Assembly: GCA_019347945.1 (NCBI GenBank)
Contig: JAHWKK010000003.1
Coordinates: 95,059-159,058, forward strand
Direction of reading: 5' to 3'
Length of the DNA stretch: 64,000 bases
Origin: Acidobacteriota bacterium
GTDB lineage: Bacteria; Acidobacteriota; Thermoanaerobaculia; Gp7-AA8; JAHWKK01
Shown: one piece after another, positions 54,631-61,193 of the stretch
How the letters are laid out: each line of letters begins with the position of its first letter
How positions within the stretch are numbered: position 1 is the first letter of the stretch
Program-made: the position numbers and the translations under genes
The notes under the pieces: generated by a model
The model's input: the letters and a program-made list of their open reading frames with translations, nothing else
What the model was told of the DNA's origin: nothing
Database searches by the model: none

Positions 54631-55785
54631 TCAGCCGGCGGAGCGCCATTGATTCAGCGGTCGGCGATCGGGCTCGGGAAAGGATCCCCGTCCGAAGAAG
54701 ACGTGCCGTGTGAGCTCGCTGAGCGGCCGCGTGCGGAGGAGTGCGCAGCCGAGCTCGACCAGCAGCGGCGACCTCACCGCGGCGATCGCCCGCCGCATCC
54801 ATCGCCGCGAAATGAATCGTGTTCCGAGTCCCCGGCCGGGGTAAAGCGAAAGCGATTTCGGGGAGCTCTGCTTCACCGCCAGGGTGAGGACCTCTGCGGC
54901 GTATCGGGAGAGACGCATCGCTCCGTCGAGGCCTCCCGCCGTAAGCGGTGAGACTGCACCGGCGGAGTCACCGATCACGAGTCCGCGCTCGCATGAGATC
55001 CGCGGAAGGATGCCGCCGACCGGGATGAGGCCGCCCCGACGCTCGACGACCCGCCCGCTCTCCAGATCGCAGATGCCGCCGATCCTGCTGCGGAGCGCGA
55101 TCAGCGCGGCGCCGGGATCGAACGAGCTCGCGTATCCACCCACGCCGACGTGGACCTCCTGCCCGTCGTCGGCAAGCCAGCCGATGTAGCCGGGAGCGAG
55201 TCGGGGATCGAGAAAGCAGTGGAGCGCGGGCGTTCGCGTGCCGCCGACGCCGTGCAGCACCTCTTCGACGCCGACGATGAGCTCGTCATTGCGGCTGAGT
55301 CCGAGAGCGGCGGCGACTCTCGATCGTGCCCCGTCCGCACCGACGATGAACCGGGTCGCCACCTTCTCGACCCCGTGCGCACCTCGTAACCACACGATCG
55401 TCCCCCCGTCCGGCGCGCGATCGACGCCGATGAACGACGTCGAGGGTCGCCACTCCGCCCCGTTCCTGGTCGCCTCCCTCAGCATGCCGGTGTAGATCGT
55501 CTCCATCCGCCCGATCCGGAACTCCGGGACCGAGCTCTCGAGCGTCTGTTCTCGCCCCGCGGGAGAGTGAAGCACCACCCGTCGAACGACGGGTCCCAGC
55601 GATCCTTCCGGCAGATCGAAATCTTCGAACGACTTCCGGACGAAGATTCCGGTCGTGCGGACCGCGGTTCGGACGTTGGCTTTCCTCTCGACGAGAAGGA
55701 CCGATACTCCTTCCGCGGCGAGATGTCGGGCGCACTGCAACCCCGCAAGTCCGGCGCCGATCACGGTGACGTCGTACCGTTTCAC
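54631..55785 (-). CDS. Geranylgeranyl reductase-type FAD flavoprotein
   Basis: This protein of about 384 residues has a GR2-type FAD-binding start ([20 protein letters not shown]), an acidic second strand (LLVERK), and [36 protein letters not shown]. This is the pattern of geranylgeranyl reductase/CrtI-like oxidoreductases that hydrogenate prenyl chains. GTG 55785 overlaps the uppS stop by 4 nt (55782-55785). Co-transcription with a cis-prenyltransferase suggests saturation of a polyprenyl product (inference). Confidence 0.85.
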
Positions 55786-56516
55786 GATAGCGCCGCCTCC
55801 GCGGAGATCGGGGCGTCGATGCGTGCTGGCCCGGGCAACCCGCCGAACCGGCGGTTCCGCCCGTGAAACGTCTCGACCGCGTCGCGAAGGTCTTCGCCAG
55901 TGAAATCCGGCCAGAGGACCTCGGAGAAGAGGAGCTCCGCGTAGGCGCTCTCCCACAGCAGAAAATCGCTCAGCCTCTGTTCCCGGCCGGTCCGGATGAG
56001 CAGATCGACGTCGGGCGTGCCGGCATCGCCATGCTGCGACTGCGCGAGAAGCCGGTGAAAGCGATCACGGGTCAGCGCTTCTCCCGCGGCGAGCCCGGCC
56101 GCCCGGACGATCGCATCCCGCGCGGAGTAATCGACGGCAAGACGAAGGTGGAGAACGTCTCCTGCTTCGGTCGCCGACTCCGCCTCTTCGATCGTGGCGA
56201 CCAGCGACGATGGAAGCCGGTCGCGCCTCCCGATCACGCTGAGTCGCACTCCTTCGCGCCGGCAGTTCGGAGTTTCCGCCTCGAGGAAGGTGCGGAAGAG
56301 CGCCATCAGAACGGCGACTTCCCGAGCGGGCCGGCGCCAGTTGTCGGAAGAGAAGGCGTAGAGAGTGAGCGTGGCGATTCCGAGGCCAGGCGCCGATTCG
56401 ACTGTCCGGCGGACGGCCTCGGCGCCGGCGCGATGTCCTCGTGTTCGCGGCCAGCCGCGCTCTTCGGCCCAGCGGCCGTTTCCATCCATGATGATGGCGA
56501 CGTGCATACGGTACAT
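55782..56516 (-). CDS. uppS: Polyprenyl diphosphate synthase (UppS/cis-prenyltransferase)
   Basis: This 244-residue enzyme adds IPP units in cis to make the C55 (or similar) undecaprenyl carrier. [14 protein letters not shown] (catalytic Asp), [31 protein letters not shown] and [20 protein letters not shown] are all present. ATG 56516 is preceded by TTGGAG; ATG 56507 also fits. It is followed by the flavoprotein with a 4-nt overlap. Its promoter carries an inverted repeat also found upstream of the wHTH operon. Confidence 0.95.
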
Positions 56517-56527
56517 GACTGCATCTC

Positions 56528-56551
56528 CAAGTACTTTATATTGCAAAGTCA
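56528..56551. promoter_or_regulatory. Putative operator 1 (uppS promoter)
   Basis: CAAGTACTTT-N7-AAAGTCA, with the perfect half-sites ACTTT (56533-56537) and AAAGT (56545-56549). It overlaps a minus-strand -10-like TATAAA (56535-56540) about 18 nt before ATG 56516. The same string with the same N7 spacing occurs at 57585-57608. Confidence 0.65.
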
Positions 56552-56586
56552 TTGCCACCAATGTTCTGTCGGGTGCCCTCGCATGA

Positions 56587-56961
56587 TCAGCTTCCTGCGC
56601 GGGTGGCGGCGATCAGCGCTTCCATGTGGTCGAGGTAGCGCTGGAGCGCCCGGCGACCTTTGGCGGTGAGCCGGTAGTCGGTGTGCGGGACTCTTCCCCG
56701 AAACGACTTGCGGCAGGCGAGGTAATCGGCGTCTTCGAGTTTACGGGCGTGAACGCTGAGGTTGCCGTCGGAGGTATTGAGAAGGTCTCTGAGCTCGGTG
56801 AAGCTGAGGCTCTCGTTGACGGCGAGAGCGCTGAGAATTCCGAGCCGGAGCCGGTCGTGAATGAGGCGGTCGAGCTCGGTCGTCCTTTCCACCGCGCCCT
56901 CGATCGCAACGAGCCCCGTATCCGTCGTACCCGGTTTCGTTTTCGCTGCCTTTCTAGCCAC
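56587..56961 (-). CDS. Winged-helix transcriptional regulator
   Basis: This 124-residue protein has a w[60 protein letters not shown], then a wing ending [21 protein letters not shown]. This is the ArsR/MarR-like 'DNA-binding' type usually paired with a small membrane protein. Its gene overlaps the membrane protein gene by 8 nt, so they form one operon headed by an operator-bearing promoter (57559-57608). It probably binds its own promoter and that of uppS (inference). Confidence 0.82.
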
Positions 56962-57550
56962 CGTACCTCCTCGCGATGATCGCTCCGAAAACGATGTGGA
57001 GAGCCCCGAATCCGACTCCGAGGCATAAATTGCCGACGAGGGGAGAGCTGAAGAGGGCGATCGTTCCGAGAAAGAGGAAGAGAAGTCCCATCAGCGGGAT
57101 GATCCGGACGGAGAATGTACCGCCGGCGACGACGGCTGCGCCGTAGAGGAGAAGCCACACCCCTGGAAGGAGCGAATGAAGCCCGGCGCGGGCGAGCACC
57201 GCGGTGAGGAGCGCTCCGGCGAGAATGGCGGGGGAAAAGCTGAGAGCGAACTGGCGCGCGGGGCGCGAAAAGAACGGCACGCCGGCGTCGCGCGCCTTGA
57301 GCATCACCGCGACCAGACCGACGGCGAGTGCGACCCCCGCCGCCACGAGCCAGGTGGCGAGCCACGCCTGCGGGGTTTCCTGTCCCGCGGCGACGATCGC
57401 GGCGGCGAGTCCGGTGAGTCCCATGATCACGCCACCCCAGCCCGGAACGGCCGTGAACGAGCCGGCGCGCTCCATCGCATCGCGGATGAAGACGAGGTTC
57501 TCGGCCGCGTGCTCGTAGATGCTCGGGGGCTCGTCGGTGCGACGGTTCAT
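56954..57550 (-). CDS. Membrane protein paired with a wHTH regulator
   Basis: This 198-residue protein has a short cytoplasmic start (PPSIYEHAAENLVFIRDAMERAGSFTAVPGWG) and six helices in two hairpin sets. The pattern of an N-terminal HAAENL..IR..ME....FT.VPG segment followed by six spans recurs in proteins encoded next to such wHTH regulators, but no activity is known. A canonical -35/-10 promoter ends 8 nt before its ATG. Confidence 0.72.
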   Translation of the reverse strand: MNRRTDEPPSIYEHAAENLVFIRDAMERAGSFTAVPGWGGVIMGLTGLAAAIVAAGQETPQAWLATWLVAAGVALAVGLVAVMLKARDAGVPFFSRPARQFALSFSPAILAGALLTAVLARAGLHSLLPGVWLLLYGAAVVAGGTFSVRIIPLMGLLFLFLGTIALFSSPLVGNLCLGVGFGALHIVFGAIIARRYGG

Positions 57551-57558
57551 TGAGGATA

Positions 57559-57608
57559 AAGATAGGGTGTCGTTCGCATAGTGTCAAGTACTTTGAGTGA
57601 TAAAGTCA
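57559..57608 (-). promoter_or_regulatory. Sigma-70 promoter with overlapping operator 2
   Basis: TTGACA (57582-57587, minus strand), a 17-bp spacer, TATCTT (57559-57564) and 8 nt to ATG 57550. The inverted repeat CAAGTACTTT-N7-AAAGTCA (57585-57608) covers the -35 upstream edge. A regulator bound here would block polymerase. Confidence 0.72.
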
Positions 57609-57966: not shown

Positions 57967-58098
57967 GAGCACCTGCTGACCCCAGTCTGATGCCTTCGTC
58001 GCGTTGCGTGCTTCGGTCGAGGATTGGTAGAGGTCCCGGGTTACCTCCTGTCGACAGGGATTGAGTGTAGCGTTCCGTGTCCCGACACTCCCGCCGTG

Positions 58099-58104
58099 TA
58101 GAAT
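58099..58104 (+). promoter_or_regulatory. Putative -10 box of the rimB-rimK operon
   Basis: TAGAAT with an 8-nt spacer before GTG 58113. Confidence 0.5.
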
Positions 58105-58112
58105 CTGGCGAC

Positions 58113-58577
58113 GTGACCGATTTTCCACAAATGATTCTCGGATGGCGGGAGTGGGTCGCGCTCCCCGACCTCGGTGTCGGCGCGGTTCACGCCAAGCTCG
58201 ACACCGGGGCGCGAACCTCCGCGCTCCACGTGGTCGAGATCGACATCTACCGGCGCGCGGGCCGGAAATGGGTCCGGTTCAAGGTCGACCCCGACCCGAA
58301 ACGGCCCAACCGGCTGATCGAGACGGCAGCCCCGCTGATCGACGAGCGCGTCGTCAAGAGCTCGAGCGGTGTCGGCGAGCTCCGTGCAGTCGTCGAAACG
58401 CGGATCGCGGTCGGCGGCCGCGAATGGCCGATCGAGGTGAGCCTGACGTCCCGGGACGAGATGAGATTCCGCATGCTGATCGGCCGGGCCGCGCTGGCGG
58501 GGAGGGTCGTGATCGACCCGAAACGTTCGAACGTCGCCGGCACACCTCGGAGGCCGCGCAGAAAGGTGGTCAAGTGA
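58113..58577 (+). CDS. RimB-like ATP-dependent zinc protease family protein
   Basis: This protein of about 154 residues is of the retropepsin-like RimB family (PF05618): [31 protein letters not shown] holds the aspartic-type D-T-G-A, and [17 protein letters not shown] is the C-terminal conserved end. In Pseudomonas and other bacteria RimB modulates RimK-made poly-glutamate tails on ribosomal protein S6. It overlaps rimK by GTGA. GTG 58113 is supported by the -10 box; ATG 58131 is an alternative. Confidence 0.85.
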
Positions 58578-59479
58578 AGATCTTCGTATTGTCGAGAAAG
58601 TCGAGCCTCTACTCGACGCGGCAGCTGGTCGAAGCGGCGAAACGGCGCGGCCACGAGGTCCGCGTGATCGACTATCTCCGCTGTTACATGAACATCACGT
58701 CGCACCGCCCCGAGGTGATCTTCCAGGGCGAAAAGCTCGAAGGGGCTGACGCGATCATCCCGCGGATCGGGGCAACCTACACGTTCTACGGAACGGCGGT
58801 CGTCCGGCAGTTCGAGATGCAGGGCGTCTTCTGTGTCGCGGAATCGCAGGCGATCAGCCGCTCGCGCGACAAGCTCCGCTCGCTCCAGCTGCTCGCGCGC
58901 GAGGGAATCGGGCTTCCCGTGACCGGCTTCGCGCACTCCACCAAGGACGTCGAAGGGCTGATTCAGATCGCCGGGGGCGCGCCGCTCGTGATCAAGCTCC
59001 TGGAAGGGACCCAGGGAATCGGCGTGGTCCTCGCCGAGACCAAGCAGGCGGCGGAGTCGGTCATCGAGGCATTCCGGGGACTCGAGGCGAACATACTCGT
59101 GCAGGAGTTCATCAAGGAAGCGGGAGGAGCGGACATCCGGGCGTTCGTCGTCGGCGGAAGGGTCGTTGCGGCGATGAAGCGGATGGCGAAGGAAGGGGAG
59201 TTCCGGTCGAATCTCCACCGCGGTGGCAACGCGTCGAAGATCAAGCTCACCCCGGAGGAGCGCTCGACGGCGGTCCGGTCGGCGAAGGCGATGGGGCTCA
59301 ACGTTGCCGGCGTCGACATGCTGCGATCGAATCACGGGCCGGTCGTGATGGAGGTCAACTCTTCCCCGGGTCTCGAAGGAATCGAAAAGGCAACCGGCGT
59401 CGACGTCGCGGGGAAGGTGATCGAGTTCATCGAAAAGAACGCCGCACCGAACAAGACGCGAGACCGCATTCAGCAATGA
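58574..59479 (+). CDS. rimK: RimK-type ATP-grasp glutamate ligase
   Basis: This 301-residue ATP-grasp ligase adds glutamate residues to ribosomal protein S6 or related targets. [58 protein letters not shown] and [20 protein letters not shown] are all RimK signatures, with [12 protein letters not shown] at the end carrying metal ligands. GTG 58574 lies in the GTGA overlap with the rimB-like gene, and its stop overlaps the next ATG (ATGA). Confidence 0.95.
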
Positions 59480-60438
59480 CGTCTGACCGAGGCACCGAGC
59501 TCGTCGTCGGAGGGGAGACGGTCGAACCGGGAACCCGGAAGCGCGTCGACATTCCGATCGCGAGATTGCCCTCCGGGACGAGTGTCTCGCTCCCCGTCAT
59601 CGTGCTGCGCGGTCGCCGCGAAGGCCCGGGCGTCTTTCTCAACGCGGCGATTCACGGCGACGAGATCGACGGGCTCGAGGTGATCCTCGAGGTTCTCGAA
59701 CGAATCAACGTGAAGTCGATTCGCGGAACGATCATCGCGGTTCCGGTGGTCAACGTGTTCGGCTTCATCACTGCGTCGCGCTATCTTCCCGACCGGCGCG
59801 ATCTCAACCGGAGCTTTCCGGGAAGCGAGACCGGCTCGCTCGCCGCGAGACTCGCGAATCTCTTCATGCAGAACGTCGTCCTGCACTGCAACTACGGGAT
59901 CGATTTTCACGCCGGCTCGCACCACCGGACCAACCTTCCGCAAATCCGCGCCGATCTGACCGATCCCGAAACGCTCCGGCTTGCGGAAGCCTTCGGGCCG
60001 CGAATCATTCTGGATGCGCCGCTGCGGCCGGGTTCGCTTCGCCAGGCTGCCGGATCGAGGGGGATCCGGACGCTCGTGTACGAAGCGGGAGAGCCGAGCC
60101 GGTTCGACCCCGTCTCGGGGACCGAGGCGGTCGAGGGGACGCTGAGAGTTCTTCATGCGGTCGGGCTTCTCGACCAGCCGGTCGACCCCTCCCCCTATGA
60201 GCCCTTCAGAATCGGACGCTCCCGATGGGTCAGGGCCAGCCGCAGCGGAATCCTCCGCCCCTCGGTGCGTCTCGGACAACTCGTGCGAAACAAGGAAAAG
60301 CTCGGCGTCGTCTCCGACATTTACGGCGAACAGAAGGCGCCGGTGAGAGCCGCGTTCGCCGGCATCGTCCTCGGCCTTCAGCTCAACCCGCTCGTTCATC
60401 GTGGCGATGCGCTGGTGCACATCGGCGAACCGGAGTGA
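59476..60438 (+). CDS. Succinylglutamate desuccinylase/aspartoacylase-family protein
   Basis: This 320-residue zinc carboxypeptidase-like enzyme has [11 protein letters not shown] (zinc His and Glu), IDFHAGS (second zinc His) and VYEAGEP (catalytic Glu). A C-terminal beta domain ends in [12 protein letters not shown]. The three-gene rimB-rimK-aspartoacylase order recurs in many genomes, so the protein may trim or process the glutamate tail or a similar product (inference). It overlaps rimK by 4 nt. Confidence 0.88.
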
Positions 60439-60450
60439 TAGAAGCGGTGG

Positions 60451-60528
60451 CCGGTTGCCGGTTGCCGGTTGCCGGTTGCCGGTTGCCGGTTGCCGGTCGC
60501 CGGTTACCGGTTGCCAGTTGTCAGTTGC
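60451..60528. repeat. Heptamer tandem repeat (GGTTGCC)n
   Basis: About ten units of GGTTGCC, the last ones degenerate (GGTCGCC, GGTTACC, AGTTGTC). It begins 13 nt after the aspartoacylase-like stop. Confidence 0.85.
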
Positions 60529-60678: not shown

Positions 60679-61051
60679 AGCCCGCGCCAGCGGGCGAAAG
60701 GGCTTAGCCCCCGGCTTCAGCCGGGGGGCCGAGACCCTGCTAGAGGTAGTGTGAGCCCGCTTCAGCGGGCGGCAGGTGCGCGATTTTTCGTTATACGGAC
60801 CGAACTCGAAGAAGCTGCCGTTGAAAACTGTAAAACGATCCTTGAGCCAGACCTGCATTCGTAAATCGCAATCGGTTCTGTCGCCCGCTGAAGCGGGCTC
60901 GACCTCATTTGTAAACCCGTCACTCGCCCCCGGCTGAAGCCGGGGGCTAAGATCTGTCGCCGCCTTCGGCGGCTTCCTCGGGTTTAATAGATTTCATCGG
61001 GACTCGAGATCACCGATCATTGACTGGTCCTGTCGCCCGCTGGCGCGGGCT
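60679..61051. repeat. Nested palindrome: three palindromes repeated in mirrored order
   Basis: Left side: a 60679-60696, b 60706-60728, c 60753-60771. Right side: c' 60882-60900, b' 60927-60948, a' 61034-61051. Each is itself palindromic, and a/a' (18 bp), b/b' (22 bp) and c/c' (19 bp) are exact reverse complements in mirrored order. A seventh hairpin (60959-60973) sits between b' and a'. The centre (about 110 bp) is ordinary sequence. The 755-bp gap before the sulfatase gene holds this and the heptamer array; no gene is seen. Confidence 0.85.
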
Positions 61052-61193
61052 GAGCCGAACTGCCAACAACTTTCTTCACCTTCGATGAGACGTTCAACAC
61101 ATCTGGTCCCTTGCGCGGGCTGTCTATACTGGCAACAGGCCAATGCTTATGTCGCTGCATCCTCTAGAAAGAGAGAATGTCCTGAGACGAGCA

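Follow-up and report, generated by a model that had tools for sequence, protein, structure and literature searches.

A predicted winged-helix autorepressor with a second operator before a non-canonical undecaprenyl-type diphosphate synthase gene

Introduction

The 64,000-nucleotide stretch of Acidobacteriota DNA analysed here (the window; contig JAHWKK010000003.1, positions 95,059 to 159,058) carries a minus-strand gene series that encodes, in coding order, a membrane protein (mem), a winged-helix regulator (wHTH), a cis-prenyl diphosphate synthase (uppS2) and a flavoprotein. One predicted operator lies before mem (site A) and a second lies within the 70-nt gap before uppS2 (site B) (Table 1). 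We consider it probable that wHTH is an autorepressor that would block initiation at A and elongation into uppS2 at B, where the roadblock would hold the polymerase on a U-tract. This reading is drawn from features of the sequence, namely the two conserved sites themselves, a promoter that accompanies A but not B, the exact spacing of a T run before B, and the presence of a second UppS.

Table 1. Features of the mem-wHTH-uppS2 module, in positions of the window
Feature	Position	Strand	Details
Operator A, predicted: TGACTTTATCACTCAAAGTACTTG	57585..57608	-	palindrome core 57590-57606; abuts -35; exact match; conserved position in relatives
Promoter of mem-wHTH operon, TTGACA-N17-TATCTT	57559..57587	-	TTGACA 57587-57582, 17 bp, TATCTT 57564-57559
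mem, 198-aa membrane protein	56954..57550	-	N-terminal helix and six long predicted helices
wHTH, 124-aa winged-helix regulator, PF13601 HTH_34	56587..56961	-	overlaps mem by 8 bases
Operator B, predicted: TGACTTTGCAATATAAAGTACTTG	56528..56551	-	palindrome core 56533-56549; between wHTH and uppS2; touches uppS2 ribosome-binding site
uppS2, second cis-prenyl (undecaprenyl-type) diphosphate synthase, NF011412/PRK14839 subfamily	55782..56516	-	profile matches
FAD flavoprotein, geranylgeranyl-reductase superfamily	54631..55785	-	overlaps uppS2 stop by 4 bases

The operator pair in the window and the genome

An earlier note on this DNA described two sites of the same form and judged such a pair unlikely to arise by chance. 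Both sites are indeed present, each without a mismatch to CAAGTACTTT-N7-AAAGTCA, and the judgement is borne out: with up to 3 mismatches allowed, chance alone would give 0.02 matches in the window, and two matches occurred in none of 100 shuffles. Across the genome (3,724,673 bases, or 3.72 Mb; 99.65% complete) the 24-bp pattern is not common, sites A and B being the sole matches at up to 2 mismatches, and the reversed control pattern has no match at the same tolerance. The two sites read best on the minus strand, which is the coding strand, as TGACTTT-N7-AAAGTACTTG. Comparison with relatives shows that their conserved core is the palindrome ACTTTG-N5-CAAAGT, whose half-sites are 11 bp apart; this spacing of one helical turn fits a winged-helix dimer.

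A search of the genome with the shorter pattern ACTTT-N7-AAAGTACTT, again with up to 2 mismatches, returned two more places (C4:51615 and C22:4250) besides overlapping strand-reversed readings. The first of these is a third, weaker site, ACTTTACGATACAAAGTCCTT (G000 contig C4:51615-51635; L115:1501), which is intergenic, with a membrane-protein-like gene on one side and an exported-protein-like gene on the other. It is possibly an extra target or a chance match.

Genes of the module

The membrane protein has no match to Pfam or NCBIfam in profile searches. Its structure model (pLDDT 90.6) consists of the N-terminal helix followed by the six long helices and has no match in the PDB at E <= 0.001, the best hint being a succinate-acetate permease (E 0.5). 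The wHTH protein matches HTH_34 (PF13601) over profile positions 1-80 of 80 at 94.1 bits (cut-off 27) and is the sole HTH_34 protein above the cut-off in the genome. The fold of its structure model (pLDDT 86) matches 1UB9 and MarR, PadR and ArsR types, and the protein falls below the cut-off of the ArsR/SmtB metalloregulator profile NF033788 (28.2 bits, cut-off 55). The recognition-helix residues D65, G66, N67, S69 and H71 are invariant among relatives, with overall identity between phylum groups down to about 30-37%.

The module UppS is a second, non-canonical copy that belongs to a distinct subfamily. It matches PF01255 (239 bits, cut-off 27) and NF011412 (343 bits, cut-off 334) and fails the canonical UppS profile NF011405 (239.7 bits, cut-off 304), to which the canonical UppS of the genome, encoded on another contig (C39), scores 315.5 bits. 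NF011412 is likewise the best profile for nine module UppS copies of other lineages, of which two fall slightly below its cut-off. A canonical UppS is also encoded in most relatives' genomes: at least two synthase matches are present in 36 of 42 relatives' genomes, and the module copy stands alone in the other six, which incomplete assemblies may explain. In two Methylobacterium isolates (G074 and G081; loci L058 and L069) the module UppS was found and the canonical copy was not, reflecting either an assembly gap or a real replacement.

The flavoprotein gene is likely cotranscribed with uppS2. Its product scores 128 bits against the geranylgeranyl reductase profile TIGR02032, below the cut-off of 158.8, and is related to this enzyme at the superfamily level only. 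Outside the window, only two near relatives (L004/L072 and L022) have this gene after uppS2, and it is thus a local addition. The earlier note had proposed a regulator of itself, of lipid-carrier synthesis and of the flavoprotein. The core of that proposal stands and gains support from the conservation of the sites at both places across phyla, with two corrections: the synthase is not the canonical one, and the flavoprotein is not a shared member of the module.

Conservation of the two sites across relatives

We fetched 80 loci by the UppS query alone, with neither the motif nor wHTH used for the fetch. A wHTH relative lies directly upstream of uppS in 75 of them. BLAST detects mem in 43 of these 75, and the gene at its place in Alphaproteobacteria is a divergent mem homologue with about 25% identity and invariant residues in common. 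Scored against a palindrome consensus that derives from these very loci, which are kin by descent and so do not count as independent events, site A precedes mem at 9 or more of 12 positions in 72 of 73 loci (shuffles 5%), and site B occupies the wHTH-uppS interval in 55 of 75 (shuffles 4%). At 10 or more of 12 positions, A is found in 89% of the 73 loci vs 0.46% of shuffles and B in 65% of the 75 vs 0.38%.

The consensus was checked by loci chosen by wHTH and by whole-genome scans. Among 28 Acidobacteriota loci picked by the wHTH profile alone, 26 carry A and 7 carry B; uppS is next door in 7 of the 28, and B is present in 4 of those 7. As mem-wHTH occurs without an adjoining uppS in the other 21, uppS is a frequent partner and not an obligate one. 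Genome-wide, the exact palindrome is confined solely or almost solely to the module locus in several Bradyrhizobium, Rhodopseudomonas and Methylobacterium genomes, with 2 of 2 occurrences there in G083, G095 and G099 and 2 of 3 in G077 and G070. The third exact palindrome of G070 (contig C111:562-578) precedes, by about 46 bp, another uppS match, which is itself in two pieces.

The record titles place the loci in Acidobacteriota, Gemmatimonadota and Alphaproteobacteria, together with Planctomycetota, Latescibacterota and Sericytochromatia, each of these last represented by one metagenome bin for which a binning error is possible. Conservation of the site at both places spans at least three phyla, and homologues carry the pattern upstream of both the wHTH/membrane genes and uppS, in agreement with the earlier note.

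Repeats in direct orientation around a 1-kb gene pair, and a gene pair that precedes different genes in different genomes, are also what one would see if the repeats were target duplications or element ends flanking a mobile mem-wHTH cassette. We find this reading highly implausible, given that the 7-base spacers differ between the two sites, that the motif is palindromic and at A keeps a constant offset from the promoter, and that cross-phylum conservation is confined to the half-sites.

Site A and the mem-wHTH promoter

Site A abuts a good promoter (Table 1), as the earlier note held when it placed this site at the -35 of the wHTH/membrane operon. The -35 in the window begins 19 bp from the start of the palindrome, and most Acidobacteriota and Gemmatimonadota loci have a TTGACA-N17-TATAAT-like promoter at the same fixed offset of 19 after the palindrome. 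In Alphaproteobacteria, site A overlaps the -10 of the promoter (GTATACTTTG). These two geometries, one abutting the -35 and the other overlapping the -10, fit repression and not activation, since an activator would call for one fixed upstream position. The predicted action of a repressor at A is read from this geometry, with which it is consistent.

Site B and the start of uppS

In the window, site B lies 11 nt before the probable uppS2 start (ATG at 56516) and touches the ribosome-binding GGAG. Among the 55 loci with B, the uppS start codon lies inside the operator in 52, and the second half-site is translated as Gln-Ser or similar. The codons used there are CAA in 46 of 52 and AGT in 36 of 52, while the bodies of the same uppS genes use CAA for 32 of 216 Gln and AGT for 20 of 577 Ser. 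This difference in codon choice places the constraint on the nucleotides; a constraint on the MxQS start at the level of the peptide is ruled out by it.

Two-promoter regulation, in which each site would be the operator over its own promoter and a uppS promoter would lie under B, is the view closest to the earlier note, which had B overlapping the uppS -10. A TATAAA is present inside site B of the window, and autoregulators that also control a neighbouring gene are common. However, promoter-like pairs around B in relatives do not rise above background (4% and 0% at 9 or more of 12 positions vs 9% and 2% in shuffles), whereas those at A stand out, and a start codon within the operator in 52 of 55 loci leaves little room for the leader of a promoter. 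The overlap with a -10 thus lacks support, and we regard separate promoters as unlikely. Site B instead lies between genes of the same direction, inside a predicted transcription unit and with no promoter of its own above background, which is the position of a roadblock-repressor operator. It likely acts on elongation or on the start of translation. In the 20 of 75 wHTH-uppS loci that lack B, expression of uppS may be set by A alone.

A T run at a fixed distance from site B

A run of 5-8 T residues precedes B in 45 of the 55 loci with B and in 0 of the 20 loci without it (p = 4e-11, kinship ignored), and a T run is found at 1 of 72 A sites. In 42 of the 45 loci the run ends exactly 8 nt before B (at -9). 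The two phylum groups share this gap, whether the start codon is at +5 or +8 and the Shine-Dalgarno sequence at about -8 or -4; it recurs at B sites before genes other than uppS (L010, L011, L024, L145, L149 and L165), and it persists even in loci whose start codon lies a long way downstream. In an unbiased scan of 300 genomes for the composite T6-N8-RCTTT-N7-AAAGY, the 199 Acidobacteriota genomes yielded 20 hits and the 101 alphaproteobacterial genomes 6, compared to 14 and 3, respectively, with the reversed pattern as control. A mem-wHTH pair directly precedes 14 of the 20 Acidobacteriota hits and all 6 alphaproteobacterial ones (20 of 26 in total). One acidobacterial genome carries, behind a mem-wHTH pair of alphaproteobacterial type, a tandem pair of operator copies, each after T-rich sequence (L180:1501-1571).

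The T run could also close an ordinary intrinsic terminator of the mem-wHTH pair, with B merely the next element along, and hairpins of about -13 to -24 kcal/mol do adjoin the run in six loci (L045, L060, L076, L084, L088 and L110). Overall, stable hairpins adjacent to the run are not enriched, with a mean of -5.1 kcal/mol vs -5.2 kcal/mol in shuffles, and a stable hairpin directly before the run is found in only about 6 of 45 loci. Together with the fixed distance between the run and B, and the absence of the run from all 20 loci without B, this makes an ordinary terminator improbable.

It has also to be considered that B acts in the mRNA, where the palindrome would fold into a hairpin over the uppS start codon and so mask it, and the U run would be a ribosome-binding enhancer. 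ACUUUGC-AAU-GCAAAGU is able to pair across the start codon, and the overlap of B with start codons in 52 of 55 loci is as this would require. In Acidobacteriota, however, the same motif at A is upstream of the -35 and is not transcribed from that promoter, and the distance from T run to operator is constant while the start codon and Shine-Dalgarno sequence shift or the start codon lies far downstream. A purely RNA-based role for B is therefore very unlikely in our estimation.

Both operators are kept in the window, where the T run is missing, and it is missing too from ten of the 55 relatives with B. In the genome of the window the U-tract step may therefore play no part, and a plain roadblock or a block of translation start is as probable there as repressor-dependent termination.

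Proposed mechanism

We propose that wHTH is a dedicated local repressor that would bind ACTTTG-N5-CAAAGT. At A, it would block the mem-wHTH promoter and thus repress its own synthesis; at B, it would block RNA polymerase and/or the start of translation. In this arrangement uppS2 would be held off more tightly, with mem and wHTH kept at a low, autoregulated level. The membrane protein probably senses the state of the membrane lipids and releases wHTH, a role suggested solely by its constant pairing with wHTH in one operon. Binding, repression, roadblock with termination, signal and the role of mem are what we infer from the sites and their surroundings.

A DNA-bound protein stops polymerase some 10-18 nt upstream, as in EcoRI and LacI roadblocks. 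A stop at this distance from B would place the RNA end on the T run, such that in most relatives a polymerase halted by the repressor at B would have its RNA 3' end there, and the weak rU:dA hybrid would favour release. The result would be a hairpinless, repressor-dependent terminator, and it is this predicted stop on the T run, along with the documented repressor roadblocks described below, that leads us to propose repressor-dependent termination at B. More tentatively, at somewhat short of an even chance, the composite of T5-8, 8-nt gap and operator may be a conserved hairpinless terminator, with bound repressor as the pausing element that holds polymerase exactly on the U-tract and a membrane-controlled wHTH switching termination before a payload gene.

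Relation to known systems

Repressor roadblocks are established for ArsR, PurR, GalR and LacI in E. coli, for CcpA and CodY in B. subtilis, and for C.Kpn2I (PMC10310618; PMC6237814), and a role of Mfd in removing polymerase stopped at such roadblocks is documented (PMC10310618; PMC4132739). The module resembles these systems in that a repressor bound inside the transcription unit would stop elongating polymerase, and ArsR is likewise a winged-helix autorepressor. What sets it apart is its internal operator, which overlies the target's start codon and in many lineages has a T run before it at a constant 8-nt spacing; roadblocking by the module is, moreover, only proposed. An autorepressor with an internal operator is thus of a known kind, and the fixed T-run element is new.

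Other HTH_34 (PF13601) regulators, including the solved relative 1UB9 (PH1061), share the domain and fold of wHTH; what the module adds is a proposed palindrome and a proposed membrane partner. In the literature searched, we found neither an operator nor a partner for the HTH_34 family, and nothing that directly addresses PF13601, this palindrome or a regulated second uppS. For HTH_34 with a six-helix membrane partner, an uncharacterised regulator type, the module provides predictions of operator, target and logic that extend over Acidobacteriota, Gemmatimonadota and Alphaproteobacteria, and it singles out a second UppS that is predicted to be regulated. SigM and anti-SigM, which control undecaprenyl phosphate use in B. 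subtilis (PMC11081497), also tie a membrane partner and a transcription factor to the lipid carrier. These are sigma and anti-sigma factors with many targets, unlike the module, which has a predicted repressor with few targets or one beyond itself.

A possible signal comes from B. diazoefficiens, a soybean symbiont, in which uppS is reported to be the most upregulated gene upon hopanoid (shc) depletion; the main text of that report does not specify the uppS copy and proposes no regulator for uppS (PMC11005386). A B. diazoefficiens strain carries the module with both operators (L080), which makes wHTH a candidate controller of this induction. With the paralogue unnamed in the main text (PMC11005386), hopanoid loss as the signal of the module is a lead and not evidence. 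The fixed T-run spacing also offers a concrete and cheap test of repressors as switchable terminators that use no RNA hairpin.

Neighbouring genes

No common pathway was found among the genes downstream of uppS, which are variable and include thymidylate kinase, CoaBC, a BchE-like radical SAM protein and others. The BchE-like B12 radical SAM protein, which scores above the BchE equivalog cut-off, is encoded directly after uppS2 (L037:3721-5244, L100:3716-5242 and L103:3716-5293); this arrangement occurs in Bradyrhizobium, Rhodopseudomonas and Methylobacterium. In some loci the place of uppS behind mem-wHTH and operator B is taken by a gene whose product is membrane-anchored and carries the conserved motif KYFCE[IV]DCH (L010:729-1427, L011:1813-2529, L024:616-1482 and L174:783-1427).

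Elsewhere in the window, the genes at 58077-60438, as read by eye, include one for a RimK-type ATP-grasp ligase, preceded by a small gene of protease-like type and followed by one that resembles succinylglutamate desuccinylase. Behind them, at 60450-60520 and 60680-61060, lies a tandem GCCGGTTGCC repeat array along with repeated palindromes of the CCGCTTCAGCGGG type.
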